This document shows positions 12,953 to 33,541 of a stretch of 49,419 nucleotides of DNA, in pieces. Where the stretch lies: positions 1 through 49,419 of the IMG/VR virus record IMGVR_UViG_3300025896_000036; one strand, written 5' to 3'. The DNA comes from a virus. The position numbers were made by a program, and so were the translations under genes. How positions within the stretch are numbered: the stretch's first letter is position 1; each line of letters opens with the position of its first letter. The notes beneath the pieces are model-generated. The model did not search any database. It was given only the letters and a program-made list of their open reading frames with translations, and was not told where the DNA came from.

Positions 12953-12988
12953 GGTGCGTTTCCTTCGGTGTGTTGTTTTGTTACATAC

Positions 12989-13017
12989 ACACTACGCCTT
13001 GCGCGGTTGGTCGTCAA
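12989..13017 (-). promoter_or_regulatory. leftward cassette promoter
   Basis: TTGACG (13017-13012), 17-bp spacer, TAGTGT (12994-12989), followed by a GTGTG/CACAC-flanked segment and a GAAGGAAACGC ribosome site before ATG 12952. The -35 and spacer are inside the 3' end of the upstream gene, and the TAG of the -10 is that gene's stop codon. Confidence 0.8.
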
Positions 13018-13297
13018 CAAAAAAACGCAATGAGGATGCGAATTCTTTCAAAACTTTTTCCTGCATTTCTGCCGAAATTATCGGTTCAAGTTTGACGGTG
13101 TTGCCGCGCTGTTCAATGCGTTGCCAAAGTTGCACGTTGCGCCACATTTTGCGGGTGCTATCCCGCTTTTGCCCTGCGTAGTAATCCAGCCGCGCGCCGT
13201 TCCGATCAGTTGCCCAATGCAGGTTATAGCTGAAGCGCCACACTTGACGGTGCATCCGGTCGGGCGCTTCCTGGATGATTTCAACAAAGGTTTTCAT
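12992..13297 (-). CDS. hypothetical 101-aa protein ending inside a promoter
   Basis: ATG at 13297 overlaps the previous stop as ATGA. Charged, Trp-rich sequence (MKTFVEIIQEAPDRMHRQVW, DYYAGQKRDSTRKMWRNVQL). No family recognised. Its last residues, VDDQPRKA, are encoded by the next cassette's -35 and spacer, and its TAG stop is the first half of that cassette's TAGTGT. Confidence 0.65.
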   Translation of the reverse strand: MKTFVEIIQEAPDRMHRQVWRFSYNLHWATDRNGARLDYYAGQKRDSTRKMWRNVQLWQRIEQRGNTVKLEPIISAEMQEKVLKEFASSLRFFVDDQPRKA

Positions 13298-13500
13298 TTC
13301 CCAAATATCCCATTCGGCAGATCGGTTGCGGTAATCTTGGTTGTTCCGAAATAGTCAAACGCATGGATAGCGCCGTATTCAATGGCTTTCGCCTGCCCGG
13401 TCGCAACGTTCGCTAATGCGTCCGAATGGTCGTTATACGGGCCAAGCAACGGGCGGAAATCATTGCCGCGCTTGATTGTGACGTAATAACCTGTCGCCAT
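13294..13500 (-). CDS. hypothetical 68-aa protein
   Basis: ATG at 13500 overlaps the upstream TAA (TAATG) and the stop overlaps the next ATG. MATGYYVTIKRGNDFRPLLG, then a hydrophobic-polar mix ending LPNGIFGK. No family recognised. Middle gene of the three-gene cassette 13721-12992. Confidence 0.6.
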   Translation of the reverse strand: MATGYYVTIKRGNDFRPLLGPYNDHSDALANVATGQAKAIEYGAIHAFDYFGTTKITATDLPNGIFGK

Positions 13501-13721
13501 TACATCACCTTCAGAACATCGCGCGAAAAGCTGTAAGGCAATTCAACGCCATTCAACGAAACGAAATAGGCGGTTTTGCTGTTGGTTGCTTTGCGGGTGA
13601 TGACCACGGTTGCGCCGTTGATGGTCAGGACGGCTTTGCAGCCGATACGGATAACCGGGGCCGAAGGCTTGCGGGCTTTCGCGGTTTTCTTCGGTGCCAG
13701 CAGGCGGCAAAGTTCATACAT
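13500..13721 (-). CDS. hypothetical basic 73-aa protein
   Basis: Start ATG at 13721; a longer start at 13757 would lie in the -10 box. The N-terminal half is basic (LLAPKKTAKARKPSAP), followed by strand-rich sequence (VLTINGATVVITRKATNSKT) that could be a small barrel. Nucleic-acid binding is possible but unproven. First gene after the 13756-13784 promoter. Confidence 0.6.
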   Translation of the reverse strand: MYELCRLLAPKKTAKARKPSAPVIRIGCKAVLTINGATVVITRKATNSKTAYFVSLNGVELPYSFSRDVLKVM

Positions 13722-13736
13722 GGTGCGCAATCCTTC

Positions 13737-13784
13737 AGTGTATTTCGTTAGATACACACTACATTAGCGCCCGGTGGTCGTCAA
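13737..13784 (-). promoter_or_regulatory. leftward cassette promoter with operator-like palindrome
   Basis: TTGACG (13784-13779), 17-bp spacer, TAGTGT (13761-13756). The near-palindrome GTGTATTTcgttAGATACAC (plus-strand reading) overlaps the -10 and start point. The spacer and flanks are almost identical to those at 16593-16639, far more than promoter function requires. Confidence 0.85.
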
Positions 13785-13792
13785 CAGTTATT

Positions 13793-13972
13793 TCACCAAA
13801 TCGGCAAAAGATTGGAAATTTCATCGGCCAATTTATAGGCGTTGCTTCGTTTATTCAGTGTTGGCTTTTCAGGGTCAACAGCATGGCGCAAGGCTTCGTA
13901 AAGCACTTTTGCTTCCTTCGTATCGACTAGGATAGCATGTGTTTTGCCGTCATCTGATGTTAAAATTTTCAT
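13793..13972 (-). CDS. hypothetical 59-aa protein
   Basis: Begins MKILTSDDGKTHAILVDTKE with an AAGGGAAACC ribosome site, then a helical, charged segment (EALRHAVDPEKPTLNKRSNA) and ends SNLLPIW. Likely a folded alpha/beta peptide; no family recognised. Last gene of the leftward unit that begins at 14732. Its TGA lies just before the next cassette promoter. Confidence 0.6.
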   Translation of the reverse strand: MKILTSDDGKTHAILVDTKEAKVLYEALRHAVDPEKPTLNKRSNAYKLADEISNLLPIW

Positions 13973-13985
13973 GCTTTGGTTTCCC

Positions 13986-14156
13986 TTATTCCTGCCATGC
14001 GCCGCAAATTTTGCAGCGCCATTCGGTTTTTCTTGGCGCGTCCTGGGTTGGCGTTTCTTCGGTATTGAGGGGTTGCATGATTGGTGCCAGCGGCGCGGGA
14101 CGCAGGCGGATGGGTGGTTCACTGACCCGCCAACAGATTTTGCAGCGGTTACTCAT
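13986..14156 (-). CDS. 56-aa protein with two CxxC knuckles
   Basis: Starts at an ATGA overlap with the upstream gene (14156). Two near-identical knuckles, RCKICWR at the N terminus and RCKICGAW at the C terminus, are separated by a proline-rich linker of about 40 residues. Four cysteines could bind one zinc as a ribbon. A small zinc-binding nucleic-acid or protein adaptor is inferred; I know no exact family. Confidence 0.6.
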   Translation of the reverse strand: MSNRCKICWRVSEPPIRLRPAPLAPIMQPLNTEETPTQDAPRKTEWRCKICGAWQE

Positions 14157-14353
14157 TCACTTGCCCTTTCTTCAAACTCTGCCGGGCCGATGGTCACAAC
14201 CATGCCGTGACGCAATGCCCAATGAATATGATTGATCAGCCATGTTTGCGCGTCTTTGTCTTCGTGATCGGTGCGCCGGGTTTGGCCGTTTTGTTCATCG
14301 GTTTTCCCGTCAAACGTTTCAACGAAAATCGGTAAAGTGTATTTTTTAGCCAT
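14153..14353 (-). CDS. hypothetical 66-aa acidic protein
   Basis: ATG at 14353 with AAGGAACG upstream; longer starts are possible at 14380. MAKKYTLPIFVETFDGKTDE, then a very polar middle, WLINHIHWALRHGMVVTIGP and an acidic end. Family not recognised. Confidence 0.55.
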   Translation of the reverse strand: MAKKYTLPIFVETFDGKTDEQNGQTRRTDHEDKDAQTWLINHIHWALRHGMVVTIGPAEFEERASE

Positions 14354-14376
14354 CTGATAGCGTTCCTTGTGTGTTG

Positions 14377-14532
14377 TCATTGAAGGCCGAAGCCATAGCC
14401 AATCAGCATAAAAAGCCAAGCTGTGCCGAAGATCGCAGCACATGCCAGACATTCGCCGATCAGCACAAGGGCCGAGCGAATGCGTCCGGTGCCGCTATGG
14501 TGACGGGTAAGATGGGGGCGCAACGGGTTCAT
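14377..14532 (-). CDS. 51-aa membrane protein
   Basis: Starts at an ATGA overlap with the upstream gene. A basic N-terminal ~20 residues (MNPLRPHLTRHHSGTGRIRS) is followed by a long hydrophobic stretch (ALVLIGECLACAAIFGTAWL, then FMLIGYGFGLQ), one or two membrane spans, positive-inside. Overlap and hydrophobic pattern support a real gene. Function unknown. Confidence 0.55.
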   Translation of the reverse strand: MNPLRPHLTRHHSGTGRIRSALVLIGECLACAAIFGTAWLFMLIGYGFGLQ

Positions 14533-14732
14533 GCCATTGCCGCCATGATGCGGCAATCACTTGCATGTTGACGCAGGCTGGCAATGTCACCTTCGGCCAA
14601 TGCGCTAAAGGTGGTGCGACCATGCCCCATGGGGTAAGCGTCGGCGGCGGCATCGAACAAGCGGGCCGCTTCAGCCCAATCAAGACGGTTAGCTGCGTCA
14701 CGGGCTGCGGTGCGAAGTTGGGCGGTGTTCAT
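14529..14732 (-). CDS. small helical (TPR-like) protein
   Basis: 67 residues, mostly helix: MNTAQLRTAARDAANRLDWA then EAARLFDAAADAYP, which resembles one tetratricopeptide hairpin. Short proteins of this kind recur in phages. Ribosome site AAGGAAACC upstream; promoter at 14764-14792. Head gene of the unit 14732-13793. Confidence 0.6.
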   Translation of the reverse strand: MNTAQLRTAARDAANRLDWAEAARLFDAAADAYPMGHGRTTFSALAEGDIASLRQHASDCRIMAAMA

Positions 14733-14755
14733 TTGGGTGGGGTTTCCTTACTGTT

Positions 14756-14792
14756 TAACCATTTGGTTAGCATGGGTTGAGCGGTTGGTCAA
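14756..14792 (-). promoter_or_regulatory. leftward promoter with palindrome over the -10
   Basis: TTGACC (14792-14787), 17-bp spacer, TAACCA (14769-14764). The -10 is one arm of the palindrome TAACCAttTGGTTA (14756-14769), so a repressor bound there would block polymerase. Serves the gene at 14732. Confidence 0.6.
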
Positions 14793-14794
14793 GA

Positions 14795-15457
14795 TCAGTA
14801 TTCGCCGGGCGGCAGATCGTCGGGGCCAGCACCTTCCGGCCATACATCGGGCAGGGTGTAGGGCTGCAAGCCAGGGGGCGGCGGTGCGAACGCGCCGCGC
14901 GCCACGGCATCAGCTTGCGCCTGCGTCATAGTCGCTTGCGGGCTGGACGTGACGGGGGTGTAACGCGGTTTCGTATCGCGTTCAATATGACGGAATGTCT
15001 TGCCGCGAACAGTTTCAAAACCCCTGCGGCCTTTCAAGTGTGAACAAACCATTGAGCGAGTTACACCCAACGACAACGCAACCGCCGAAGAATTCGGGAA
15101 AATATCGCCCGTTTCAATACATTCAACAGGAAGTCTGATAGGCTTCGCATTTGGTGTGTTCGGCGTACCGTCCAAACGATATTGCAAGTTGCAAATCGGT
15201 GAATACTTTTGAACCAATCGAAACGCGGCGCGGTTTGCTTCAAGTTCTGAAATCTGTGTTTCTTCAATGACGGTAAAAATTGCAGTGTCAAACGGGACCA
15301 ACTTTGACCAAGCTTTGTTGCGCCTGGCGTCGGGGAAAGTGGTCAGGTCTGCAAACTTGCAGAAACCAACCCATAAAACAGCATCGGTGTTACGATGTGT
15401 ATAGATTGCCCAATGCTGATCAATGGTCAAAATAGGTGCAAAGATGGTTCCGAACAT
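14795..15457 (-). CDS. GIY-YIG-like / NUMOD1-like DNA-binding protein, paralogue 1
   Basis: 220 residues from ATG 15457 (GAAGGAAAC upstream). N-terminal half: WAIYTHRNTDAVLWVGFCKF, then TFPDARRNKAW, a pattern like degenerate GIY-YIG endonuclease modules. The middle ECIETGDIFPNSSAVALSLG, then SHLKGRRGFETVRGKTFRHI, resembles the NUMOD1 helix-turn-helix of homing endonucleases. The C-terminal ~50 residues are proline-rich and disordered. It is clearly homologous to the divergent gene at 15830. Catalysis is uncertain; the two genes flank the candidate origin, so origin binding or nicking is an attractive guess. Confidence 0.65.
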   Translation of the reverse strand: MFGTIFAPILTIDQHWAIYTHRNTDAVLWVGFCKFADLTTFPDARRNKAWSKLVPFDTAIFTVIEETQISELEANRAAFRLVQKYSPICNLQYRLDGTPNTPNAKPIRLPVECIETGDIFPNSSAVALSLGVTRSMVCSHLKGRRGFETVRGKTFRHIERDTKPRYTPVTSSPQATMTQAQADAVARGAFAPPPPGLQPYTLPDVWPEGAGPDDLPPGEY

Positions 15458-15478
15458 GTTGTTTCCTTCATTTTGTTC

Positions 15479-15507
15479 AGTTAACAACATTTTTCATGTG
15501 AAGTCAA
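15479..15507 (-). promoter_or_regulatory. leftward promoter for paralogue 1
   Basis: TTGACT (15507-15502), 17-bp spacer, TTAACT (15484-15479). The inverted repeat TTGTTcagttAACAA (15474-15488) spans the -10. Confidence 0.6.
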
Positions 15508-15526
15508 GCGCAAAATCATACGGGCA

Positions 15527-15600
15527 GTTATGGGCAATTATGGGCGATTATTGGCTGATTATGGGTGGTTATGGGCGATTATGGGCGATTATGGGTGGTT
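15527..15600. repeat. seven direct ~10-bp iteron-like repeats
   Basis: Consecutive units of the form (A/G)TTATGGGYR, ten bases each with one eleven-base unit (the third). Spacing of about one helical turn would place a bound protein on one face of the helix. No reading frame is favoured. Lies in the 345-base non-coding region between two divergent paralogues. Confidence 0.85.
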
Positions 15601-15627
15601 TTACTACATTGTTTGATGAAAAATCCA

Positions 15628-15750
15628 CCTGATGTAGTATCCTATATTCGCTTCTGAAAAATGTTAAGTATATAGTAAAAGATATAAACTATACATACTT
15701 AACATAACACTTAACCTTTCCAGCCCTGTATATAACGACACTACATCAGG
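15628..15750. other. candidate replication origin: AT-rich nested inverted repeats
   Basis: The outer perfect inverted repeat CCTGATGTAGT (15628-15638) / ACTACATCAGG (15740-15750) encloses an AT-rich core. The core holds a second inverted repeat, TGTTAAGTATATAGT (15662-15676) / ACTATACATACTTAACA (15688-15704, two extra bases). It is the only long AT-rich non-coding stretch in the genome and sits beside the iteron-like repeats. I see no coding sequence. Origin function is an inference; it could also be a divergent regulatory region. Confidence 0.5.
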
Positions 15751-15769
15751 GGGTGAGTAGATTATCACA

Positions 15770-15798
15770 TTGACAAGCCAATAAATTTCAGCTAGAAT
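15770..15798 (+). promoter_or_regulatory. rightward promoter for paralogue 2
   Basis: TTGACA (15770-15775), 17-bp spacer, TAGAAT (15793-15798); RNA start expected ~25 bases before the ATG at 15830. Confidence 0.75.
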
Positions 15799-15829
15799 TC
15801 CCGTCCAACACTGAACAGGGAAACAAGAT

Positions 15830-16297
15830 ATGATGAATATAATTTCCGGCGCTCCATCGGGCTTTTTCGAAAAATGGTGCGCTTACTCGCAACGAACGCC
15901 CGGCGCGGTGGTTTATGTTGGGTTCTGCAAAGCTGCGAAACTTTTGCAGTTTCCAGACGCCCGGCAAAATCGCACCTGGCTGATGCTTTGCCAGCATGAT
16001 CCTTTGTTGATCACAATAGCCGAAGGGTTTTTTGATACTGAAGAAAAGGCGCGGTCGGTCGCGGCTGATCTGATTGCGGCGCATAGCCCGACATGCAATG
16101 TTGCTGAAGATCGCAGGTTGTCGCAAATACAGGGTTTGACACGCGGCCCGGTGATCTGCGAACAGACCCAAGAAACCTTTCCTAGCGCGGCGGCGGCGGC
16201 GCGGGCGGTGGGTGCGAATGCAAGCGCCATGGCGCAACACCTGGCGGGGTCAGCAGGCTATCGCACAGTTAGGGGGATGACCTTTAGACGCGTCTAA
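15830..16297 (+). CDS. GIY-YIG-like / NUMOD1-like DNA-binding protein, paralogue 2
   Basis: 155 residues, ATG ATG start (GGGAAACAAG upstream). It aligns by eye with the gene at 14795-15457 over its whole length: WCAYSQRTPGAVVYVGFCKA, FPDARQNRTW, HSPTCNV, then FPSAAAAARAVGANASAMAQ and GYRTVRGMTFRRV. It lacks the proline-rich tail. The two are transcribed divergently away from the iteron and inverted-repeat region. Its own promoter (15770) and terminator (16298) make it a stand-alone unit. Confidence 0.65.
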   Translation: MMNIISGAPSGFFEKWCAYSQRTPGAVVYVGFCKAAKLLQFPDARQNRTWLMLCQHDPLLITIAEGFFDTEEKARSVAADLIAAHSPTCNVAEDRRLSQIQGLTRGPVICEQTQETFPSAAAAARAVGANASAMAQHLAGSAGYRTVRGMTFRRV

Positions 16298-16321
16298 AAG
16301 CCGGGCGCTATGGCCCGGCTT
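16298..16321. terminator. hairpin terminator
   Basis: AAGCCGGGC (16298-16306), 6-base loop, GCCCGGCTT (16313-16321), directly after the TAA of paralogue 2 and 12 bases before the end of the leftward gene at 16333. Probably works on both strands. Its sequence resembles that of 32114-32137. Confidence 0.75.
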
Positions 16322-16332
16322 GGTGTTGGTGA

Positions 16333-16575
16333 TCAGTTCAGCGTTGCGTTGCCAGCATGGTTTGCCGGGGCGATAGCAAGGGAATATTTCGGCTTGCCCA
16401 AACCATCCTTGCCACATTCAACAATCGCGCCCGATTTCAACAGTGAGCGGATTGCGGCGGCAACAGCGTTCGAACGCCCGAAGCGCGGTTGAAAGAAAGC
16501 CGGGATAATCTCGCAGCCAATTTTTGCGGCTGCAAGAATTTCTTTCATTTTGGCTTGGGTTGCTTCGTTTGCCAT
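16333..16575 (-). CDS. small winged-helix-like protein
   Basis: 80 residues. MANEATQAKMKEILAAAKIG, then RFGRSNAVAAAIRSLLKSGA and GLGKPKYSLAIAPA: a helix-helix-wing layout as in small winged-helix DNA-binding proteins, though no specific family is clear. ATG 16575 follows the shared leader GAAGGAAACGA. Driven by the cassette promoter at 16611-16639. Confidence 0.6.
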   Translation of the reverse strand: MANEATQAKMKEILAAAKIGCEIIPAFFQPRFGRSNAVAAAIRSLLKSGAIVECGKDGLGKPKYSLAIAPANHAGNATLN

Positions 16576-16592
16576 GATCTTCGTTTCCTTCA

Positions 16593-16639
16593 GTGTATTT
16601 CGTTAAATACACACTACATTAGCGCCCGGTGGTCGTCAA
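16593..16639 (-). promoter_or_regulatory. leftward cassette promoter with perfect palindrome
   Basis: TTGACG (16639-16634), 17-bp spacer, TAGTGT (16616-16611). The perfect palindrome GTGTATTTcgttAAATACAC (16593-16612) covers the -10 end and the start point. This is the best copy of the repeated promoter module in the genome. Confidence 0.88.
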
Positions 16640-16642
16640 TAG

Positions 16643-16849
16643 TTAATCGCGCATTGCCGCAATTATTTCATTCTTCAACTGTTCGATTGTTTCCGCAGCC
16701 CGTTCGCGTTGTGACTTCATCCTTTCGTTATGTATTATTTCCAAATGATTGCGAACCGCGTCAAGGTCGCAGCGTTTGAAACGCCAACAATCCGCGCCGT
16801 AATCAGGATGATCTTCTTTGATAAATTCCACATTCGGAATTATAGGCAC
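16643..16849 (-). CDS. hypothetical helical protein
   Basis: The coding signal (DYGADCWRFKRCDLDAVRNH, then a charged helix NERMKSQRERAAETIEQLKN) is convincing but the start is not. GTG at 16849 is the best candidate because a terminator hairpin lies upstream at 16866-16892; no good ribosome site is visible. Coiled-coil tendency in the C-terminal half. It would be expressed only by read-through of that hairpin or from an unseen promoter. Confidence 0.5.
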   Translation of the reverse strand: MPIIPNVEFIKEDHPDYGADCWRFKRCDLDAVRNHLEIIHNERMKSQRERAAETIEQLKNEIIAAMRD

Positions 16850-16865
16850 AATTTGCCATATAAGC

Positions 16866-16892
16866 AAAAAGCCCGATGACAGATCACCGGGC
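16866..16892 (-). terminator. leftward intrinsic terminator
   Basis: Arms 16871-16879 and 16884-16892 (GCCCGATGA with TCACCGGGC, one G-T pair), 4-base loop, then five T on the leftward strand. It lies between 16908-17234 and 16643-16849, so it should attenuate the second gene. Confidence 0.75.
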
Positions 16893-16907
16893 CGGATTGA
16901 TGGGTAT

Positions 16908-17234
16908 TTATACACTTTTCAATGCCGTTTTCAAAATCATTTTGAACACCGGGCCTTCAGCTTTCCAACCATATTGATTGTAAGCGTATTCAGCACCTTT
17001 ACCGATCACAATAGCGCGGGTTTTGATGGTATCGGCGGCAAGCTTAACAGGCTTCACCGTGTAAGGGGTTTGCTGCGGTGCGATAGCGCGGGCCAAGCAA
17101 TCAGCACCAAACACACCAGCAAACCCGGCAAGCTTTACGCCAACTTTCAATTCACGCCCGCAATGGCTGCATTCGCATTCACGCGAAAAACCAACAATTT
17201 GAATTTCTTCGTTTGCGTTGAAAGCGATAGTCAT
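16908..17234 (-). CDS. zinc-ribbon-containing small protein
   Basis: 108 residues from ATG 17234 (leader GAAGGAAACGAG). CECSHCGRELKVGVKLAGFA followed by GADCLARA supplies four cysteines in a treble-clef or ribbon arrangement around residues 20-48. The C-terminal half is strand-rich (YTVKPVKLAADTIKTRAIVI). Related small zinc-binding proteins occur in phages; function unknown. A longer start at 17273 would lie in the promoter. Confidence 0.65.
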   Translation of the reverse strand: MTIAFNANEEIQIVGFSRECECSHCGRELKVGVKLAGFAGVFGADCLARAIAPQQTPYTVKPVKLAADTIKTRAIVIGKGAEYAYNQYGWKAEGPVFKMILKTALKSV

Positions 17235-17250
17235 TTTCTCGTTTCCTTCA

Positions 17251-17300
17251 GTATGTTGTTTCGTTACATACACACTACATTAGCGCCCGGTGGTCGTCAA
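17251..17300 (-). promoter_or_regulatory. leftward cassette promoter
   Basis: TTGACG (17300-17295), 17-bp spacer, TAGTGT (17277-17272), with inverted repeat GTATGTtgtttcgttACATAC (17251-17271) next to the -10. Spacer sequence identical to the other strong copies. Confidence 0.85.
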
Positions 17301-17349
17301 GAGTTATTTCAACGTTGACGGTGATTTTGTGATAATTTACAGTGAGGGA

Positions 17350-18003
17350 ATGAACGCCACGCCGCAACAGATCAGCTTTTCCCCTGCGTCCGAATGCCTT
17401 TCGGGCGCGGAAAGCGATTTTGTTTCAAACTTCGTCGGGCAGGTTGTCGAATTCGCCCGGCGTTCAGGGCAAGAAATTCTCGCAGCCCTGGAAAGTATCG
17501 GGCGCGCGGGGCAGTCATTTGATCGGCGAACAACTGAATTCTTGGCAATCCAGCGGGTTAGAATTGCGGTCTATGATCGCTGCAAAGACCTGGACGCCCG
17601 CGATAGAGTTTCCGCCGAACGCATCCGACAAGAGGTTTCCGCGCTGGCGTTTTCAACAATGGCCGATTACGTCAAGCCGGATGAATTCCGGCCCGGTGAT
17701 GTTACTTTTGACTTCAGCGATTTGACACCCGCACAATGGGCGGCAATCGAAAGCATGGAATATGAAGAAAGCGTGACCGGGGGAAAGCGCAAGTATAAGC
17801 TGAAGCTGCATCGGAAATTGGTCGCGTTGGAACAGCTTGCAAAACATATCGGCTTTGATGATCCGGGCAACCCATACCGCGCCCGCGAACAGGCGCGCGA
17901 ACAGGTCGCACAAGCGCCACTGGCCGCGTTTGCGCAGGATACCGACCTTGCCAAGCTGCAAGATGCTTACGCGCGCCTGTTGACGCAATCCGGGGGCGGC
18001 TGA
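17350..18003 (+). CDS. terminase small subunit
   Basis: 217 residues. ATG at 17350 follows GAGGGA; a GTG at 17290 would begin inside the opposing promoter. The C-terminal half has the small-terminase pattern: SALAFSTMADYVKPDEFRPG, DLTPAQWAAIESM, then YKLKLHRKLVALEQLAKHIG. It binds the packaging site and hands DNA to the large subunit. A clear N-terminal HTH is not visible to me. Separated from the large subunit by an opposing cassette, which is unusual. A weak rightward promoter may lie at 17307-17336. Confidence 0.78.
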   Translation: MNATPQQISFSPASECLSGAESDFVSNFVGQVVEFARRSGQEILAALESIGRAGQSFDRRTTEFLAIQRVRIAVYDRCKDLDARDRVSAERIRQEVSALAFSTMADYVKPDEFRPGDVTFDFSDLTPAQWAAIESMEYEESVTGGKRKYKLKLHRKLVALEQLAKHIGFDDPGNPYRAREQAREQVAQAPLAAFAQDTDLAKLQDAYARLLTQSGGG

Positions 18004-18020
18004 TGGTCGTCAACAGCCCT

Positions 18021-18257
18021 TCAGTCGTGCCGGGTGATGGTGGCGCTAATGCGCTGCGTTTCGTCACCCCAAAGCCATTCCCCGTCTGTGTAATCCCGGC
18101 CCGTTGCCGATTGGGTCAATATTCGGCCAAGCTGCGAAACCGTGCCTTTGCAAACCTTGGCAACTTCGGCGCGCATTTGCGCAACGGCGCTATTCCAAGC
18201 GTATTTGGTTGCAACATGCTTGCCGTTGATTTTGATGATGTAGGTTTTGCGTTTCAT
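18021..18257 (-). CDS. moron-like hypothetical protein between terminase genes
   Basis: 78 residues, leftward, wedged between the two rightward terminase genes. MKRKTYIIKINGKHVATKYA, charged middle, ends EWLWGDETQRISATITRHD. Ribosome site AAGGAACC. Own promoter at 18296-18324, which overlaps the start of the large terminase gene. No family recognised. Confidence 0.65.
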   Translation of the reverse strand: MKRKTYIIKINGKHVATKYAWNSAVAQMRAEVAKVCKGTVSQLGRILTQSATGRDYTDGEWLWGDETQRISATITRHD

Positions 18258-18295
18258 GGTTTCGGTTCCTTGTTCTGTGTTGCTTCGTTAGATAG

Positions 18296-18324
18296 AAGAT
18301 AGGATAGTTCCTGATGGTCGTCAA
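18296..18324 (-). promoter_or_regulatory. leftward promoter overlapping the large-terminase start codon
   Basis: TTGACG (18324-18319), 17-bp spacer, TATCTT (18301-18296). The ATG of the terminase gene (18314) lies inside this promoter, so the two transcription units overlap head to head. Confidence 0.7.
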
Positions 18325-20071: not shown

Positions 20072-20072
20072 A

Positions 20073-21617: not shown

Positions 21618-21618
21618 T

Positions 21619-21651: not shown

Positions 21652-21664
21652 AAAGAAACCCAAA

Positions 21665-22492: not shown

Positions 22493-22520
22493 TCGGCTTT
22501 CCCTGTTGGGCCGATCATAA

Positions 22521-22555
22521 CGCCGCCGCGATGTTGGGTTTCCATCGCGGCGGCG
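22521..22555. terminator. strong hairpin terminator
   Basis: CGCCGCCGCGAT (22521-22532) and ATCGCGGCGGCG (22544-22555) with an 11-base loop, followed rightward by TTTCT. It ends the rightward packaging/scaffold transcript and lies against the end of the leftward gene at 22559. Confidence 0.8.
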
Positions 22556-22558
22556 TTT

Positions 22559-22795
22559 CTATTGGACAACCAAACCCGCTAGCTTCAGCCATTCAGCAAA
22601 CTGCATTTCGACGGTATATTCTGCGTCAAGTCGATTAATCCTCACCACGTTTTCAATGCGATAGGAAGGCAATTTCCAGCTAATTTGCCAGCGCCCCGAA
22701 TTGTCGTTGATTTCCCAAATTCGGGCAATGATGATCTGACCGCACATATAGTTTGCGCCGCCATAGCCGTCAAATGATGGTTTCCACTCAATCAT
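22559..22795 (-). CDS. hypothetical 78-aa protein
   Basis: MIEWKPSFDGYGGANYMCGQ, strand-rich middle (IIIARIWEINDNSGRWQISW), ends EWLKLAGLVVQ. The alternating pattern suggests a beta-sandwich-like small domain. ATG 22795 overlaps the upstream stop by eight bases. Last gene of the five-gene leftward cassette from the 23652 promoter. No family recognised. Confidence 0.6.
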   Translation of the reverse strand: MIEWKPSFDGYGGANYMCGQIIIARIWEINDNSGRWQISWKLPSYRIENVVRINRLDAEYTVEMQFAEWLKLAGLVVQ

Positions 22796-22982
22796 ATACG
22801 ATATTCCCTGTCAATTTCAAAGTTTGCGTAACCGCATGAATGATCGCGGCTGTTTCAGTTTCGGAAACTTCAGCGATAACACGTTGCCAGAGTTCTTTGC
22901 CAACACCTGAAATTTTGCGCAAGATGATTTGGTTTTTCTTGGTGGTGTAATTGTAGCGTCGGGCGATGCTATACGTTGTCAT
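22788..22982 (-). CDS. hypothetical 64-aa protein
   Basis: MTTYSIARRYNYTTKKNQII, then SETETAAIIHAVTQTLKLTG: a strand-strand-helix pattern. The ATG directly follows the TAA of the membrane peptide gene. Family unknown. Confidence 0.6.
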   Translation of the reverse strand: MTTYSIARRYNYTTKKNQIILRKISGVGKELWQRVIAEVSETETAAIIHAVTQTLKLTGNIVYD

Positions 22983-23075
22983 TTAGTCGTTCCCCCAAAT
23001 GATGTAGCACAAAACTTGACCAATCGCATAGCCTACGACAGTTCCGATAATTACACAAACGATTAGGTTTGTCAT
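22983..23075 (-). CDS. 30-aa single-span membrane peptide
   Basis: MTNLIVCVIIGTVVGYAIGQ then VLCYIIWGND: one transmembrane helix with a short polar tail. It starts at an ATGA overlap with the upstream gene (23075), and its TAA is directly followed by the next ATG. Such tight joins on both sides indicate translation. Compare the 33-aa membrane peptide at 7900-8001. Confidence 0.6.
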   Translation of the reverse strand: MTNLIVCVIIGTVVGYAIGQVLCYIIWGND

Positions 23076-23305
23076 CCTTCTACCTCATTCATGCAGAGTT
23101 TCCAAAAACCGGGAAAGAATGGCACTTTGCATTTACGCCCGGTTACTTCTCTTTCATTTATCCAATGAAAACTGTCATGCGTCAAAGCCGAACCGCCCTT
23201 GAAGCTGGTAATCCTGATCAACAGTTTATCGTTATGCGCGCCCAACACCTGGCAAGCAATACCGCGATGAAGCGCGGGAAGCGGGGCGGGTGGTCTAAAC
23301 ATCAT
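23072..23305 (-). CDS. hypothetical 77-aa protein
   Basis: Tandem ATG ATG start at 23305/23302, overlapping the upstream stop. Contains HRGIACQVLGAHNDKLLIRI, then HDSFHWINEREVTGRKCKVP, with Cys and His residues but no clear metal site. Family not recognised; member of the cassette from the 23652 promoter. Confidence 0.55.
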   Translation of the reverse strand: MMFRPPAPLPALHRGIACQVLGAHNDKLLIRITSFKGGSALTHDSFHWINEREVTGRKCKVPFFPGFWKLCMNEVEG

Positions 23306-23627
23306 AGTCGCAAATCCGGTCAAGCGTGCCGAAACCAATCAAGGTTTCTTCGTCAATTGACCAACCCAAAACGCGCCGCATATCGCCAAGCTTTCGCCCT
23401 TGTGTTGCAATTGAATACATCGCGCCCGCCCGGTGTTCAATCCAGATTTGGGCGTCCGGTTGTTCAAGCGCGGTTGCATAAACAACACTCAATATATTCT
23501 CAAATTCATCACTGCAACCCGCTTCAATGATGTTCTTGATTGCAGCAAACCACTTGACGGATAAATCCGCTCTGATCTTTTCCGCCCATTGAATTTGTTT
23601 CGTTGATCCGTTCATGGGTTCAACCAT
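23295..23627 (-). CDS. hypothetical 110-aa helical protein
   Basis: First gene after the 23652 promoter. MNGSTKQIQWAEKIRADLSV resembles the start of small phage proteins with a KQxxWAxxI motif. ATG 23627 or ATG 23615 could be the start; 23615 fits that family better, but the ribosome site AAGG lies nearer 23627. Remainder is helix-rich, ending in an acidic tail. Function unknown. Confidence 0.6.
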   Translation of the reverse strand: MVEPMNGSTKQIQWAEKIRADLSVKWFAAIKNIIEAGCSDEFENILSVVYATALEQPDAQIWIEHRAGAMYSIATQGRKLGDMRRVLGWSIDEETLIGFGTLDRICDYDV

Positions 23628-23651
23628 ACCTTCGCGCCCGATGATCCTTAA

Positions 23652-23680
23652 CCACTAGGTTGATTTTGCTATCTAGTCAA
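23652..23680 (-). promoter_or_regulatory. leftward cassette promoter
   Basis: TTGACT (23680-23675), 17-bp spacer, TAGTGG (23657-23652); drives the five-gene cassette 23627-22559. Confidence 0.65.
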
Positions 23681-23720
23681 GCGAATTTGAAACCTGTATT
23701 TATAGACCATTGGTCGCGGT

Positions 23721-23751
23721 CGGATGACTAAGCGGCGCTTGGGTTGGATGA
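23721..23751 (+). promoter_or_regulatory. paired GGATGA element upstream of coat
   Basis: CGGATGA (23721-23727) and TGGATGA (23745-23751), with a GCGC-bearing spacer, 45 bases before the coat ATG. Parallels 21619-21651 before the scaffold gene. Confidence 0.4.
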
Positions 23752-23796
23752 CCCGAACAAAATTCCCCAAAACCATGCAAAACGGAGATATTGCAA

Positions 23797-25017: not shown

Positions 25018-25039
25018 TCCGTCTTTGAATTGATCAATT

Positions 25040-25065
25040 AGCCGCGCGCTTCATTGTGCGCGGCT
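25040..25065 (+). terminator. hairpin terminator after coat
   Basis: AGCCGCGC (25040-25047) and GCGCGGCT (25058-25065), followed by TTTT. It separates abundant coat mRNA from the lower-level genes downstream. Confidence 0.8.
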
Positions 25066-25084
25066 TTTCAAAACGGGGGCTGAA

Positions 25085-26169: not shown

Positions 26170-26184
26170 CAAAGGAAAAGGGAA

Positions 26185-26541
26185 ATGAACGACACTTGCA
26201 AAACCGTCGCCGTCCAAACTGCAAACGGGCCGGTTGATATGAACGAAGCCGATTACACGCCCGACATGGGGCCGTTGGTGGGTTCTGATACCGCGCCGCC
26301 CGCGCCCGCTGATACCGCGCCGCCCGCGCCCGCTGATACCGCGCCGCCCGCGCCCGCTGATACCGCGCCGCCCGCGCCCGCTGATACCGTGCCGCCCGCG
26401 CCGATGCTGGTATCAAAGCAAGGCAGGAAATTCTTCGTTGTGGACGGGCAAGCAAAGCCAATTGACGTTGCAGGAATTGACGTGTCGGGCTACGCTGCTG
26501 AGGCGGATGCTTGGGCCGCTATCATGGCTTTGACCAAGTAA
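26185..26541 (+). CDS. virion-region protein with Pro-Ala octapeptide repeats
   Basis: 118 residues: a short N-terminal segment, five copies of DTAPPAPA (the last variant with Val), then a compact C-terminal domain (VSKQGRKFFVVDGQAKPIDV). Ribosome site AAGGAAAAGGG. The repeat probably forms an extended rigid linker. No family recognised. Confidence 0.6.
   Translation: MNDTCKTVAVQTANGPVDMNEADYTPDMGPLVGSDTAPPAPADTAPPAPADTAPPAPADTAPPAPADTVPPAPMLVSKQGRKFFVVDGQAKPIDVAGIDVSGYAAEADAWAAIMALTK
26287..26406 (+). repeat. five tandem 24-bp repeats
   Basis: Units begin at 26287, 26311, 26335, 26359 and 26383; the first four are identical, the fifth has changes (GTG for GCG, altered end). Encodes the DTAPPAPA linker. 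Confidence 0.92.
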
Positions 26542-26567
26542 GAAATCACAAAACCGCCGGGGGAATT

Positions 26568-29018: not shown

Positions 29019-29019
29019 T

Positions 29020-29520
29020 ATGCCGCAAAAATACGGAACAGCCGCAGGATTGATTGCATACTTTCTTGCGCGCGGTAAGGTTGTTGATCCTGACTTGGAC
29101 ACAACAGAAATTGACGCCGGGCTGTTGGTCGCGTCCGAATGGATTGACGCTAATTTTCGCGGATTGTTTCCCGGCTTAAAAACCGGGATGCGGGTTCAGG
29201 AACGTGAATGGCCGCGTACGGGTGCTTATGATTATTACGGATACGCAATCGGCAATGACGCAATTCCGGCTGAAATCGAAAACGCAACGTATGAATTGAC
29301 GTTGATTGAGTTGACAACGCCCGGAAGCTTGTCGGTCAATTTTACGCCCGGTGAATATAAGGCTGTTTCGATTGATGGTGTTCTTTCGGTTGACTATGCG
29401 CAGTTTAGCCAAAGTTCGGAAGTTCAAACGCAGTTCCGCAAAGTAATTGAAATCCTTTCCGGGCTGTTGTCTGGCAACTCGCAAACATCAAGCCTTTCCG
29501 GTGTTGTCGCGCGGGCGTGA
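29020..29520 (+). CDS. head-tail connector, DnaT-like family
   Basis: 166 residues from ATG 29020. Starts MPQKYGTAAGLIAYFLARGK, with ASEWIDANFRGLFPGLKTGM and ENATYELTLIELTTPGSL. This matches the phage family often labelled DnaT-like ssDNA-binding protein, which by position and fold is a head completion or connector protein. The DNA-binding label is likely a misnomer here. Confidence 0.65.
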   Translation: MPQKYGTAAGLIAYFLARGKVVDPDLDTTEIDAGLLVASEWIDANFRGLFPGLKTGMRVQEREWPRTGAYDYYGYAIGNDAIPAEIENATYELTLIELTTPGSLSVNFTPGEYKAVSIDGVLSVDYAQFSQSSEVQTQFRKVIEILSGLLSGNSQTSSLSGVVARA

Positions 29521-29527
29521 TATGCAA

Positions 29528-29553
29528 AACGCCCGCCTGTCGGGGCGGGCGTT
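29528..29553. terminator. hairpin terminator
   Basis: AACGCCCGCC (29528-29537) and GGCGGGCGTT (29544-29553), loop of 6, after the connector stop and before the end of the leftward gene at 29575. Confidence 0.75.
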
Positions 29554-29574
29554 CGGTGCTGAAGGTTTGGCCGA

Positions 29575-29979
29575 TCACTTGCGACGGAAAACGCGAACCG
29601 ATGCGCCTTCGGGGTCTTTCGTGGCGTCAACGTCAACCGCGAAGAAATCCCTGTCCTGGATCATCACGGGTTCGCTGGTCGGAATGGTCGTCATGTTGCC
29701 GTTGGCGTCTTTCACGTTCTGCGTTTTGAACACAACGTTTCCGGCGTCGTCTTTCTTCGGAACCATGTTGTCGGCCTTGCGGTTTTGCGCCGAAACGATG
29801 CTGGAAAGGCTTTTCGCGGTGCGCCCGATCACGCCGAACGAAGCGCCAACGGCGGTCAGATCGGCAAATGGGAATTGCGATTTCGAACCGCGTTTGTTCT
29901 TGACAACTTCGGGCATCGGAACGGATGCGGTGACGCCAAGAATTTTCATCGTGACGGGGGTTGCGGAGTTTTTTGCCAT
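29575..29979 (-). CDS. moron-like hypothetical protein
   Basis: 134 residues, leftward, between two connector genes. Conserved-looking C terminus DFFAVDVDATKDPEGASVRV then FRRK; N-terminal half basic (VVKNKRGSKSQFPFADLTAV). Similar small phage proteins exist without known function. Own promoter at 30033-30061; the stop faces the 29528 terminator. Confidence 0.65.
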   Translation of the reverse strand: MAKNSATPVTMKILGVTASVPMPEVVKNKRGSKSQFPFADLTAVGASFGVIGRTAKSLSSIVSAQNRKADNMVPKKDDAGNVVFKTQNVKDANGNMTTIPTSEPVMIQDRDFFAVDVDATKDPEGASVRVFRRK

Positions 29980-30032
29980 GGTTCAACTTTTCCTTGTGTT
30001 TGGGTTTCATCGTCTATAACGTCTGTGTTAGT

Positions 30033-30061
30033 TAGATAGTTGGTTGAAAAACAATCGTCAA
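30033..30061 (-). promoter_or_regulatory. leftward cassette promoter
   Basis: TTGACG (30061-30056), 17-bp spacer, TATCTA (30038-30033), with a direct repeat GTTAGTTAGATAG next to the -10. Drives 29979-29575. Confidence 0.7.
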
Positions 30062-30077
30062 GAGGGAAATCGCGCAA

Positions 30078-30440
30078 ATGACAATTTTTGATGATATGCA
30101 AAAAGTGGCGAAAAGCTTGCTAGGAAACGCCAAATTCACGCAAGGTAGCATGGTGTTGGTTCGCAACATTCCCGGAGCGGGTTCTGCGTCTGATCCTGGT
30201 GCGGCTGAAACCCGGCGTTATCCGGTGGTCAGTGTTCCCCCGCGCGGTGCAAAGTACGCATATATTATGAAAAATCTTGCGGTTGCGTCTGACTTGCAAG
30301 TGACGTTCGCGCCAATTGAAGTTGAACCTTTACCGCGTGACTTTTTCGAAATCAATGGCGTCCCTTACAAGATCATGTATATTGACCGGAAACCAAGCGC
30401 CGGGACGGCGGTTGCGTTCACCCTGATCTTGCGGCGGTAA
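30078..30440 (+). CDS. head closure / neck-like protein
   Basis: 120 residues, ribosome site GAGGGAAA. Sequence: MTIFDDMQKVAKSLLGNAKF, VLVRNIPGAGSASDPGAAET, FFEINGVPYKIMYIDRKPSA. The strand-rich pattern and place between DnaT-like connector and gp7-like genes suggest a head-tail joining protein; not proven by motif. Confidence 0.6.
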   Translation: MTIFDDMQKVAKSLLGNAKFTQGSMVLVRNIPGAGSASDPGAAETRRYPVVSVPPRGAKYAYIMKNLAVASDLQVTFAPIEVEPLPRDFFEINGVPYKIMYIDRKPSAGTAVAFTLILRR

Positions 30441-30441
30441 A

Positions 30442-31551
30442 ATGGCACGTTACACGGATGCGACGGCAGAGATTGAAGCCCTGATCGAACAGCTTATCCC
30501 GTCCATTCGTGACGTGTTTTTGACGCTCATTCGGGACGTAACCGACAACGTTGTATTGCAGCAAGTCGTCAAGGCTTTTCAGATGGGTGATCCGGTCGCG
30601 GCGTTCGAAGCCTTGGGGCTATCAGACGCAGCGATGCGCCCCATAACCAAGATGATCGAGGATGCTTACGAAGCGGGCGGCGTGACCACGGGCGGCACGT
30701 TTCCGGCCCGGCTGAAGCTCCCCTTTGGCCCGTCTGTTGTGTTCAGGTTTGACGTTCGGAACAGCCGGGCCGAACAATGGTTGCGCGAAAATTCGGCCCG
30801 GCTGATCACCGAAATTCAAGAGGAAACCCGCGTTGTTGTGCGGAACGTCATGGAAGACGGGATGCGGCGCGGCGTCAACCCGGCGACTTCGGCGCTTGAC
30901 CTGGTGGGCCGCTTGGACGCTAGCGGGCATCGGGTGGGCGGCACCATCGGCTTGACCACTGCGCAGGAAGGTTGGGTGCGTAGTACGCGCGCCGATCTTA
31001 CCACACAAAACCCGCGCTATTTTGATCGGCAATTGCGCGGGAAAAACTTTGACAAGATCGTAAAACGTGCGTTCGACAAAGGCGAACCGTTGCCAGCGGA
31101 AACAGTTGAACGGCTTGTTACGCAATATAAGGCGAATGCGCTACGTTATCGTGGCGAAGTCATCGGGCGAACCGAAGCAATCAAGGCGCTGAATAAAGCA
31201 CAATTTGAGGCAATAAACCAAGCTATTGATATGGGCGCAATCAAGGCTAGCGCCGTGACCCGTGAATGGGATAGCGCCGGGGATTTTCGCGTTAGAGAAA
31301 CGCATCGCCTAATGGACGGTCAAAAGGTCGCGTTTGATCAGCCTTTTAAATTTCCGTTGGGCGGTCTGGCAATGTATCCTGGCGATACAGACCTAAACGC
31401 CCCTGCGTCCGAAACAATTCAATGTCGTTGCCGCGTCAAGATCAAAATTGATTGGCTAGCAGGTGCGGTAGAATACGCGCGCAAATTGCCTGCGGATGAA
31501 TTGGCCGAATTGCGCGGGTTGGCGTTCGCCAAGTTGCCGGGCGAAAAATAG
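30442..31551 (+). CDS. minor head protein, Mu gpF / SPP1 gp7-like
   Basis: 369 residues. The C-terminal signature REWDSAGDFRVRETHRLMDG, then PGDTDLNAPASETIQCRCRV is diagnostic of the Mu F-like/SPP1 gp7 head morphogenesis family. The N-terminal ~240 residues are helical. Present in a few copies inside the capsid and needed for correct head assembly or DNA exit. Confidence 0.85.
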   Translation: MARYTDATAEIEALIEQLIPSIRDVFLTLIRDVTDNVVLQQVVKAFQMGDPVAAFEALGLSDAAMRPITKMIEDAYEAGGVTTGGTFPARLKLPFGPSVVFRFDVRNSRAEQWLRENSARLITEIQEETRVVVRNVMEDGMRRGVNPATSALDLVGRLDASGHRVGGTIGLTTAQEGWVRSTRADLTTQNPRYFDRQLRGKNFDKIVKRAFDKGEPLPAETVERLVTQYKANALRYRGEVIGRTEAIKALNKAQFEAINQAIDMGAIKASAVTREWDSAGDFRVRETHRLMDGQKVAFDQPFKFPLGGLAMYPGDTDLNAPASETIQCRCRVKIKIDWLAGAVEYARKLPADELAELRGLAFAKLPGEK

Positions 31552-31566
31552 CGCTCGGCTTAGTGG

Positions 31567-31833
31567 TTAGGGCATCATCGGAAAAATGTCGTCACCTTTG
31601 AACAGACATTCCGTTTGTTTAGATTTGATCAGCATTCCTCGCTGTTCGGTGGTCAATTCCGCGCCGTCTGTTTCGTATTCGCGCAGTATTCTGCCTTCAC
31701 CGGACTTTCCGCTAGCATAGCTTGCAGTTTCGAAAAACCGAAAACGGTACGCACTCTTGCGACCTTTGCAAATCGCATAAATCCCGGTTACTTTCTCTTT
31801 TCCGTATGCTTCAGCTTGATAAATCAGTTTCAT
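31567..31833 (-). CDS. hypothetical 88-aa protein
   Basis: ATG 31833 overlaps the upstream TGA. MKLIYQAEAYGKEKVTGIYA, basic RKSAYRFRFFET, ends acidic (LFKGDDIFPMMP). Last gene of the cassette from the 32438 promoter. No family recognised. Confidence 0.55.
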   Translation of the reverse strand: MKLIYQAEAYGKEKVTGIYAICKGRKSAYRFRFFETASYASGKSGEGRILREYETDGAELTTEQRGMLIKSKQTECLFKGDDIFPMMP

Positions 31834-32093
31834 TTCGTCGGTTCCTTGCTGATGTTGTATGCGTTGCACACTGCACCAAAACTTGCGACTTTGCAACCGT
31901 TAAACGCTTCGTGATACTCCATTGCAACGAAGCTATTTGCAAAAACGACATACACTTGTCCTTCGTCGTCAATGTGCAACAGTTTGCCGTCAAATGAAAT
32001 CGGGCAATGTGGCATTTTGAACGTTGAAACCATCCGGCCAACTAATGTTGACATAAGAATTTTGGTCGTCTGTGCCTGTTCAACCGTGATCAT
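31830..32093 (-). CDS. hypothetical 87-aa protein
   Basis: MITVEQAQTTKILMSTLVGR, then FDGKLLHIDDEGQVYVVFAN and a Cys-containing end. Preceded by a terminator-like hairpin (32114-32137) and a weak ribosome site, so expression may be reduced relative to the first gene of the cassette. Confidence 0.55.
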   Translation of the reverse strand: MITVEQAQTTKILMSTLVGRMVSTFKMPHCPISFDGKLLHIDDEGQVYVVFANSFVAMEYHEAFNGCKVASFGAVCNAYNISKEPTK

Positions 32094-32113
32094 TTTGCAG
32101 CCCTGATAGAGTA

Positions 32114-32137
32114 AAGCCGGGCCATTATGCCCGGCTT
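32114..32137 (-). terminator. hairpin inside a leftward cassette
   Basis: AAGCCGGGC (32114-32122) and GCCCGGCTT (32129-32137), 6-base loop, between the genes ending 32145 and starting 32093. A near copy of the hairpin at 16298-16321. Likely attenuates the last two genes of this cassette. Confidence 0.65.
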
Positions 32138-32144
32138 GATCGGT

Positions 32145-32387
32145 TCAGTTTGCGCCAAGGGTGGCGCGCAAGGTGCCGTCCGAATTCACACGGAAAACTT
32201 CAACGTATTCCGCTTTATGAACGTTCAACCATTGCCCGGAAATGGTCAAGGCATGGTCAAGATCATCTGCGGCAAATTCACTTTCGCGCCCTTCTTTGCG
32301 CACTTGCACGACAAAATCAAGAACGAAGCCCGAAGCTTCAACAGAGTTGCGAAGCGCAAGACGATCAGCAGGGGAAGCAAAAGACAT
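32145..32387 (-). CDS. hypothetical 80-aa protein
   Basis: MSFASPADRLALRNSVEASG, FVLDFVVQVRKEGRESEFAA, then HKAEYVEVFRVNSDGTLRAT. Alpha/beta pattern; no family recognised. First gene after the 32438 promoter. Confidence 0.6.
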   Translation of the reverse strand: MSFASPADRLALRNSVEASGFVLDFVVQVRKEGRESEFAADDLDHALTISGQWLNVHKAEYVEVFRVNSDGTLRATLGAN

Positions 32388-32437
32388 AGTAAAAAACCTT
32401 TCAGTTTATCGGCAGGATTGCCGTTTTCCTTGCTTAC

Positions 32438-32466
32438 ACACTACATTGAAAGCGATTGGTCGTCAA
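32438..32466 (-). promoter_or_regulatory. leftward cassette promoter inside the vWA gene end
   Basis: TTGACG (32466-32461), 17-bp spacer, TAGTGT (32443-32438). The -35 and spacer encode the last residues of the vWA-like protein and the TAG of the -10 is its stop codon, as at 12989-13017. Confidence 0.82.
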
Positions 32467-33337
32467 GCATTATTCTTAGATTTTTTGGCGTCACAAAGTC
32501 AAACATTTCGCGCGTTGATCCGGTATCGACTTTTTCAAGATCACGCATTTGGATCATGGGAAAATAGAATTCGTTCGGGCCGGGCCGGTGCTGCAAACTG
32601 AAGGCGCTTGCCGGATAGCCTTGATTGCGCCAAATCGTGCGAAGCCGTGCAACCGAACCGACAAGCGCAAACCTGAAGCGCCGTTGAAATGAAGGATGAC
32701 CCATAGCAAAAACTGCATTTGCAAGGTTCAGACGTTCGCCCGCGTTCTTGACTTTCACAGCAGTTTGACAAGCTAATTGTTCGCCGTCAACATCATCTAG
32801 ACAAGTCGTGATCAGGCTGACAATTTCGCAGGAATGGCCGCGATTTTCTAGAATGTCGCAAACTGCGGCGATGATCGCGGCGCGCGTGATCAAAATTTCC
32901 CGATCAATCCCTGCACTCGCTGAATTTTCCAAAAACAGCGTTATCACGCGCTTGCCTTCGGTCTGGACGTTGCGCCGCATGTGGGCCGGGCTGCCAGCGA
33001 GTAACCGCCCAACGTTCACCGATGCGCCCGCGACAGAATGCGTCCTGGCAGGCTTGCGGGGGTATTCGGCGGCAAGATCGGCGGCGATGGCTTCAGCGCG
33101 TTCTAGCCCCTCTTGCCAGCCCGTGCGGGCGGTCAGGATTGCGCTAGTCATGCTGGCCGACCCTGCAAAGCCTGGTGACGCATCCCAACCCGCCCGCGCG
33201 TCTTTGTCGGCAGGCAATGGCATGTTTTCGATATGATCGGTCAAGGCGTCAAGGCTGGAAAAGCCAAAATAAACGGGCGTCCGGTCAAACCGGAACCGCC
33301 CTAGATATTCGTCACTGTCACCGATTGTTAGGGTCAT
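32441..33337 (-). CDS. vWA-like (DUF7192/CobT-like) protein, partner of a MoxR ATPase
   Basis: 298 residues from ATG 33337 (overlap with a 45-aa gene). Layout: an N-terminal ~130 residues with LGRFRFDRTPVYFGFSSLDA, then a vWA-like core beginning KRVITLFLENSASAGIDREI, with ILENRGHSCEIVSLITTCLD as the next strand-helix unit. The metal site that is normally DxSxS reads ENSAS, so the first Asp is lost. vWA proteins are assembled or switched by MoxR ATPases; the ATPase is encoded two genes upstream. I know similar pairs in phages but not their target. Confidence 0.7.
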   Translation of the reverse strand: MTLTIGDSDEYLGRFRFDRTPVYFGFSSLDALTDHIENMPLPADKDARAGWDASPGFAGSASMTSAILTARTGWQEGLERAEAIAADLAAEYPRKPARTHSVAGASVNVGRLLAGSPAHMRRNVQTEGKRVITLFLENSASAGIDREILITRAAIIAAVCDILENRGHSCEIVSLITTCLDDVDGEQLACQTAVKVKNAGERLNLANAVFAMGHPSFQRRFRFALVGSVARLRTIWRNQGYPASAFSLQHRPGPNEFYFPMIQMRDLEKVDTGSTREMFDFVTPKNLRIMLDDQSLSM

Positions 33338-33471
33338 TTCGCCACAAGCGCCTTGACCCAATCAATCGCATGGGTTTCCCCACGTTTGAACGCAATGGCA
33401 ATTTCAAGCGCCTTAAATGCGCTATGCCCTTTGCTGATCAGAAATTTCTGGATTTCGTCTTTGGTTTCCAT
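33334..33471 (-). CDS. 45-aa linker-gene protein
   Basis: METKDEIQKFLISKGHSAFK, then IAFKRGETHAIDWVKALVAK. Helical with mixed charges, ends at an ATGA overlap with the vWA gene and begins after the standard leader GAAGGAAACGC. It is transcribed from the 33510 promoter and so is co-expressed with the vWA protein. Family unknown. Confidence 0.6.
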   Translation of the reverse strand: METKDEIQKFLISKGHSAFKALEIAIAFKRGETHAIDWVKALVAK

Positions 33472-33509
33472 AATCTGCGTTTCCTTCAGTGTGTTGTTTC
33501 GTTACATGC

Positions 33510-33538
33510 ACACTACATTAGTGCCCGGTGGTCGTCAA
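33510..33538 (-). promoter_or_regulatory. leftward cassette promoter between MoxR and vWA genes
   Basis: TTGACG (33538-33533), 17-bp spacer, TAGTGT (33515-33510), spacer and leader nearly identical to the copies at 13756, 16611 and 17272. It allows the 45-aa and vWA genes to be expressed separately from the ATPase. Confidence 0.85.
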
Positions 33539-33541
33539 GTG

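Follow-up and report, generated by a model that had tools for sequence, protein, structure and literature searches.

The 49,419-nucleotide virus contig IMGVR_UViG_3300025896_000036 (the window, by which we mean this whole stretch of DNA) carries genes for terminase, portal, capsid, tail, DNA polymerase and primase, and dispersed among them are leftward promoter-like sites that precede small genes. A preliminary description, made from the nucleotide sequence alone, assigned thirteen such sites to one family of mobile cassettes with a shared operator and a single regulator. What do these sites have in common, and which part of their sequence could be read by such a regulator? With moderate confidence, we propose that they are early promoters of the host sigma70 type that join moron-like genes into a regulon private to the lineage, with an operator in the spacer between the -35 and -10 boxes and a TetR-like protein as the candidate for their shut-off. 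If correct, this proposal would explain the single control of dozens of foreign small genes that lie head-on to virion genes in a lytic phage, as well as the joint change of operators at a dozen scattered promoters between lineages. Searches of open-access papers yielded no description of the promoter family of the window.

A leftward promoter family

Sites are named here by the first base of the -35 box. All 13 listed positions contain TTGAC, a spacer of 17 or 18 bp and TAnnnn in leftward orientation, and each site is followed by a short open reading frame (ORF) with an ATG start and a GGA-rich ribosome-binding site (RBS). The core of the family consists of six leftward TTGACG-N17-TAGTGT sites (13017, 13784, 16639, 17300, 32466 and 33538), each directly upstream of a leftward ORF, with none on the opposite strand. 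Four of these are close copies, located at 17272-17300 (its leader and RBS extend to 17235, and ORF 16908-17234 follows), 16611-16639 (with the 8-bp leader palindrome GTGTATTT-AACG-AAATACAC, ahead of ORF 16333-16575), 13756-13784 (ahead of the leftward operon 13721-12992) and 33510-33538 (followed by ORF 33334-33471 and by the DUF7192 gene at 32441-33337). The near-identity of these four spacers and leaders, as originally reported, was borne out: the sequence TTGACGACCACCGGGC(G/A)CTAATGTAGTGTG occurs four times, always leftward and never forward, 29 of its 30 bases are common to all copies, and the leaders are alike down to GAAGGA(AACG). The likeness starts about 10 bases ahead of the -35 box, in a GAAATAAC-like sequence, and stops at the ribosome site. 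The two other core sites have diverged spacers and precede ORF 12815-12952 (promoter at 12989-13017) and the genes 32145-32387, 31830-32093 and 31567-31833 (promoter at 32438-32466).

A 30-bp matrix of the family yielded 11 leftward matches, 8 of them upstream of an ORF, and none rightward, so that the result named beforehand as refuting the family, equally good sites spread inside genes, did not arise. A two-box matrix, trained on the same sites that it scored, found 14 leftward and 3 rightward sites at a score of at least 14, whereas Markov sequence gave about 0.5 on each strand. The family matrix also recovered two looser members, namely 18296-18324 (TTGACGACCATC..., -10 box TATCTT), which lies in the TerS-TerL gap ahead of ORF 18021-18257, and 2620-2648 (TTGACA-N17-TAGTGT), ahead of the conserved leftward gene 1832-2587. 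An unpaired TTGACGACCATC match at 18013, where the small terminase gene ends, lacks a -10 box and an ORF and is possibly a relic site.

The remaining listed sites appear to be ordinary sigma70-like promoters. The sites 14792, 15507, 23680 and 30061 have only the generic promoter shape without the family spacer; these are the leftward promoters at 14764-14792 (ahead of ORF 14529-14732), 15478-15507 (ahead of ORF 14795-15457), 23652-23680 (ahead of an island of four genes, 23615-22559, flanked by gp21644 and the major capsid gene) and 30033-30061 (ahead of the conserved DUF7303 gene 29575-29979, at a position kept in relatives). Another non-family site, at 9118-9147 with an 18-bp spacer, precedes ORF 8727-9083, which encodes a 118-amino acid (aa) protein of near-identical NLPGVVSLPELAACTxF repeats without a confident family assignment. 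Thus, the common boxes of the proposed thirteen-promoter family are present throughout, but the core shrinks to six to eight sites, and the predominance claimed for TAGTGT amounts to 7 of the 13 (the six core sites and 2648), the other -10 boxes being TAGCGT, TAGTGG, TATCTT, TATCTA, TAACCA and TAACTG. A search of bacterial and archaeal genomes for the promoter core gave no exact match, and a host-genome source was rejected accordingly.

Lineage-private spacers in related phages

The closest named relatives of the window phage are the Rhizobium phages vB_RglS_P106B (P106B) and RHph_X2_24 (Rigallicvirus), with 48-49% identity in the portal, 69-73% in the capsid and 61-63% in the DNA polymerase; for P106B, the values are 48% (portal), 72% (major capsid protein), 60% (terminase) and 62% (DNA polymerase), and the genes are collinear. 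The window evidently represents a contig of a Rigallicvirus-like siphophage. A portal-protein search alone retrieved one near-identical fragment; a capsid profile search retrieved 44 relatives, and 14 further records were taken for comparison. The resulting set of 22 genomes or fragments comprises fetched records, fragments, the window, P106B and RHph_X2_24. Near-identical pieces of the window phage are present in other metagenomes (L013, L016, L021, L026 and L031), and an exact 16-mer search of viral contigs gave promoter matches only in L013, L016 and L021, the rest being chance hits.

Leftward TTGAC-N17-TA sites precede leftward ORFs in most relatives, many with a spacer private to the phage: ACCATCGCAACGACCAT in G012 (eight copies), ATCGCAATTTTCATCGC in G007, a ACCATCGCAATGACCAT-like sequence in G008, GACCAGTTTGACGGGTG in G004, ACCGTCTGACGAC- in L043 and CACAATTAGAAACGCGT in P106B. 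G003 and G016 lack the TTGAC form and have other repeated leaders instead, namely TTGCAAGATTCGCGCGATACGAATATAAC plus partial further copies in G003, and about seven copies of GCTTAAACGCGCTACTATTATTTAAAC, tandem 27-bp repeats ahead of leftward genes below 2300, in G016 (L108). In G001 (L083-L085), the leader ACCCCCATCAATGGAGACACTCA, a start-associated repeat, is found at the ribosome site of six leftward genes (51846-54407 in capsid-plus orientation) without the promoter.

Across 85 sites in 12 genomes, spacer identity is 0.38 within and 0.27 between genomes, and none of 2000 label permutations gave as large a difference; because the sites are not independent, these figures rank the signal and do not measure its significance. 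The within-genome excess is clear in eight of the twelve genomes, and about that many phages have lineage-private spacer families. Moreover, although the site search required TA in the -10 box and imposed nothing on the spacer, conservation is higher in the spacer than in the -10 box in three genomes, namely G012 (0.95 versus 0.74), G007 (0.91 versus 0.68) and G008 (0.79 versus 0.53), with upstream flanks at 0.24-0.66. Self-similarity is in excess at 12 bp (z of 7.2 in G012, 5.6 in G007, 4.5 in G002 and 3.4 in G008), reflecting 12-bp direct repeats in the sites, such as GACCATCGCAAC-GACCATTAGAGC-GATCATCACAAC; G012 and G007 have additional repeats beside the promoters. The better-kept spacer, together with the 12-bp repeats, favors a protein-binding site in the spacer and suggests that the operator lies there. 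The shared operator of the preliminary description, in the sense of a sequence beyond promoter need that recurs at several promoters within a genome, is thereby supported in its general form, with the spacer as its more likely seat than the leader palindrome.

The promoters of the DUF7303 gene allow the same comparison at one locus. In all 14 members of this cluster, which was drawn from genes that have such a site, a leftward TTGAC-N17/18-TA promoter precedes the gene, at a constant place between head genes. Compared over 12 phages, the DUF7303 promoter is closer to the remaining sites of its own phage than to the sites of the others (p=0.001); this is clear in G012, L043 and G004 and falls just short of that in G008.

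Small-gene islands and the copied unit

Across the 22 genomes or fragments, islands of small leftward genes fill gaps in the collinear array of rightward core genes, while other relatives lack them in the same gaps. In the window, three islands stand out. The first (12806-17340, mostly leftward) lies between the primase and small terminase genes. The second (22493-23790) falls in the gap that separates gp21644 from the major capsid gene; this gap measures 1308 bp with 4 leftward genes in the window versus 152-215 bp with none in six relatives. The third (31552-34750, leftward) includes an AAA ATPase gene (33542-34675) and the DUF7192 gene, and fills the gap between morph and gp34752, which is 3204 bp in the window versus 6-89 bp in six relatives. 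The relatives with nearly empty gaps are G001, G003, G010, G016, G018 and G005. P106B and RHph_X2_24 share with the window the core gene order, several island gaps, the DUF7192/ATPase island and the TetR-like gene, but differ in promoter spacer sequence and in most island genes.

The island genes are mostly accessory. Among the ten near-complete genomes, homologues in another genome exist for 65% of the rightward genes versus 35% of the leftward ones, a comparison in which the shorter length of leftward genes lowers homologue detection. No homologue was found in these genomes for 6 of the 7 small-ORF genes directly behind family sites; the seventh, 16908-17234, has a non-significant tblastn match (E=0.71) and matches phrog_19038. 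These results uphold the earlier picture of small accessory genes set against the structural genes behind dispersed leftward promoters.

Morons are genes with their own promoters inserted between phage structural genes. The islands resemble them in that extra DNA separates genes adjacent in relatives and an apparent promoter precedes the leader gene of each island; the moron-like placement originally suggested is thus matched by gaps that some relatives have filled and others have left empty. Unlike morons, the islands hold multiple genes under one promoter family and include conserved genes (AAA ATPase, DUF7192); no excess of terminator-like sequences was found in them.

What is copied seems to be smaller than the whole module first envisaged. 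A promoter-leader unit of about 55-75 bp is repeated, but the proteins behind the four close copies have no mutual similarity, and homologous leftward genes are found in different gaps, with P106B 48133 and G007 13471 each behind the promoter type of its own phage. The units thus appear to be copied without the gene, and the four close window copies may be recent. A comparison with the sibling fragment L016 gives a sign of exchange at a scale of about 540 bp, all 55 differences over 4.6 kb being confined to positions 15086-15627; this apparent recombination tract takes in the leftward gene 14795-15457 and its promoter. The same gene and the rightward gene 15830-16297 match the same relative loci (P106B 51481, X224 9473) and are apparently an inverted duplicate pair.

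Regulation, alternatives and known systems

Under the proposed mechanism, host RNA polymerase would read the leftward primary-sigma (sigma70) promoters early in infection, and an operator in and around the spacer would be common to many promoters of one phage and different between lineages. The regulon would consist of small, mostly accessory early genes gathered in gaps of the rightward core, plus a few conserved leftward genes, and new genes would join by landing behind a promoter-leader copy. Once rightward late transcription begins, a phage DNA-binding protein would close the promoters, preventing head-on transcription through virion genes. The lineage-private promoter families suggest one such DNA-binding regulator per phage lineage; for the single regulator of the preliminary description, only a candidate can be named. 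This is a small TetR_N-like helix-turn-helix (HTH) protein of 105 aa (6555-6872, rightward), which has a TetR-type HTH but is too short to hold a ligand domain. Its gene is present in 10 of the 10 near-complete genomes, in each of them rightward and located downstream of the helicase gene. The protein profile matches TetR structures (E=3.7e-7); single members match Pfam TetR_N weakly, the window protein falling below the curated cut-off. We infer that this protein would bind the promoter spacer; the HTH_17 (excisionase-like) protein at 9242-9412 (rightward) is an alternative candidate. A covariation between recognition helix and operator is not claimed, since it would depend on ten proteins only and be inseparable from phage kinship. 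In a bolder version, to which we attach rather little credence, the ligand-domain-free TetR-like protein would serve a clade of siphophages as a fast-evolving master regulator. Its operators, private to each lineage and seated in the spacers of many scattered early promoters, would be replaced in concert as its specificity changes, and any gene behind a promoter copy would be enrolled.

Several observations weigh against the regulon. In X224, G001, G010 and G011, spacers are hardly or not at all more alike within the genome than between genomes, and the permutation and autocorrelation tests take related sites as independent. The window DUF7303 site is unlike the window family (rank 10 of 12). 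The recognition helix of the TetR-like protein (THGA) is nearly identical in P106B and G012 despite the different operators of these two phages, and the rightward strand of the window has no operator match and hence no sign of autoregulation. Intrinsic terminators in the islands are as numerous as in shuffled sequence, and as cassette boundaries they were rejected on that ground. Finally, the window spacers are 0.67 alike while the -35 and -10 boxes are at 1.00, as recent copies would give.

For the window taken alone, then, recent copying is a possible explanation. More generally, the sites could be recently copied strong promoter-leader units without a common regulator, spread by recombination as good expressers of any gene, so that likeness would mean recency; we take this alternative seriously while thinking it unlikely. 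The four window copies fit it, agreeing from about 10 bases before the -35 box through the RBS with a -10 box as conserved as the -35 box, and the 540-bp strain-variable tract, which spans a single leftward gene with its promoter, is evidence of exchange at such a scale. However, recency alone would let the -10 box, spacer and leader decay equally, whereas in G012, G007 and G008 the spacer is better kept than both the -10 box and the leader, which copying alone does not predict. The 12-bp repeats and the partial adoption of the family spacer by DUF7303 orthologues also speak against copying.

A role at the RNA level seems improbable. Here the leader palindrome and RBS-proximal sequence would form a 5' hairpin that stabilizes the mRNA or controls its translation, much as was first proposed for the start-associated sequences (SAS) of cluster K mycobacteriophages. 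Palindromes spanning the stretch from the -10 box to the RBS are found in 5 of the 6 family sites (arms of 6-8 bp; shuffle P of 0.002-0.048, the sites not being independent), and GAAGGAAACG adjoins the start codon. Yet the palindrome is missing from the looser window sites and is not general in relatives, where conservation centers on the spacer. With TAGTGT as the -10 box, the left arm would occupy roughly -8 to -1 and so would not be transcribed. A start about 7 bases after the -10 box places the palindrome over -10 to +1, where it would act as DNA and not as an mRNA hairpin, and the hairpin reading was set aside because the left arm overlaps -10 to -1. That these are unrelated sigma70 promoters, alike through consensus constraint only, is very improbable: the weaker sites 14792, 15507, 23680 and 30061 do share box positions only, but sigma70 needs no particular 17-bp spacer, and the 29 of 30 common bases and the private spacers of relatives already contradict this for the six core sites.

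The closest known system to the proposed regulon is probably the extended SAS (ESAS) of cluster K, which are dispersed, associated with gene starts, subcluster-specific in consensus and proposed to bind protein (PMC3203893). They combine a 17-bp inverted repeat with a 13-bp Shine-Dalgarno-like motif in the right, non-structural half of the genome (PMC3203893). The window family is like ESAS/SAS in having many dispersed copies right before gene starts (there, of non-structural genes) and a consensus that varies by lineage or sublineage. It is unlike them in that the repeated part is promoter plus spacer, on genes among and opposite to structural genes, in relatives of Rhizobium phages. Neither the 13-bp GGGATAGGAGCCC-like motif nor the 17-bp paired inverted repeats of cluster K are present at the sites, the unit of which is TTGACGACCACCGGGCGCTAATGTAGTGTG plus leader; the family works like SAS/ESAS without being a member. 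Further off are the stoperators of cluster A, which are asymmetric dispersed repeats that follow the direction of transcription and have a proposed role in termination and silencing, and the palindromic 17-bp dispersed repeats of cluster O, often inside genes (PMC4351075). Both resemble the window sites in being dispersed and in part intergenic; the window sites differ in being promoters at gene starts.

Accessory early genes often include anti-defence and host-takeover genes, and the promoter family would offer a simple sequence rule for spotting them. The cultured Rhizobium phages of this clade would be a ready system for concerted operator evolution.

No tRNAs and no matches to RNA families were found in the window, and no integrase was seen among the genes examined. 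Both contig ends (1-80 and 49340-49419) consist of the identical 39-bp tandem repeat TTGCGGGGCATAGCCGCCGGGCGCGGGCATTCCGCCCGG, so that the contig may be circular or have stopped within the repeat. Two DNA methyltransferases, of the N6/N4 and C5 types, are encoded rightward at 3796-4506 and 9415-10266 and are present in only some relatives.

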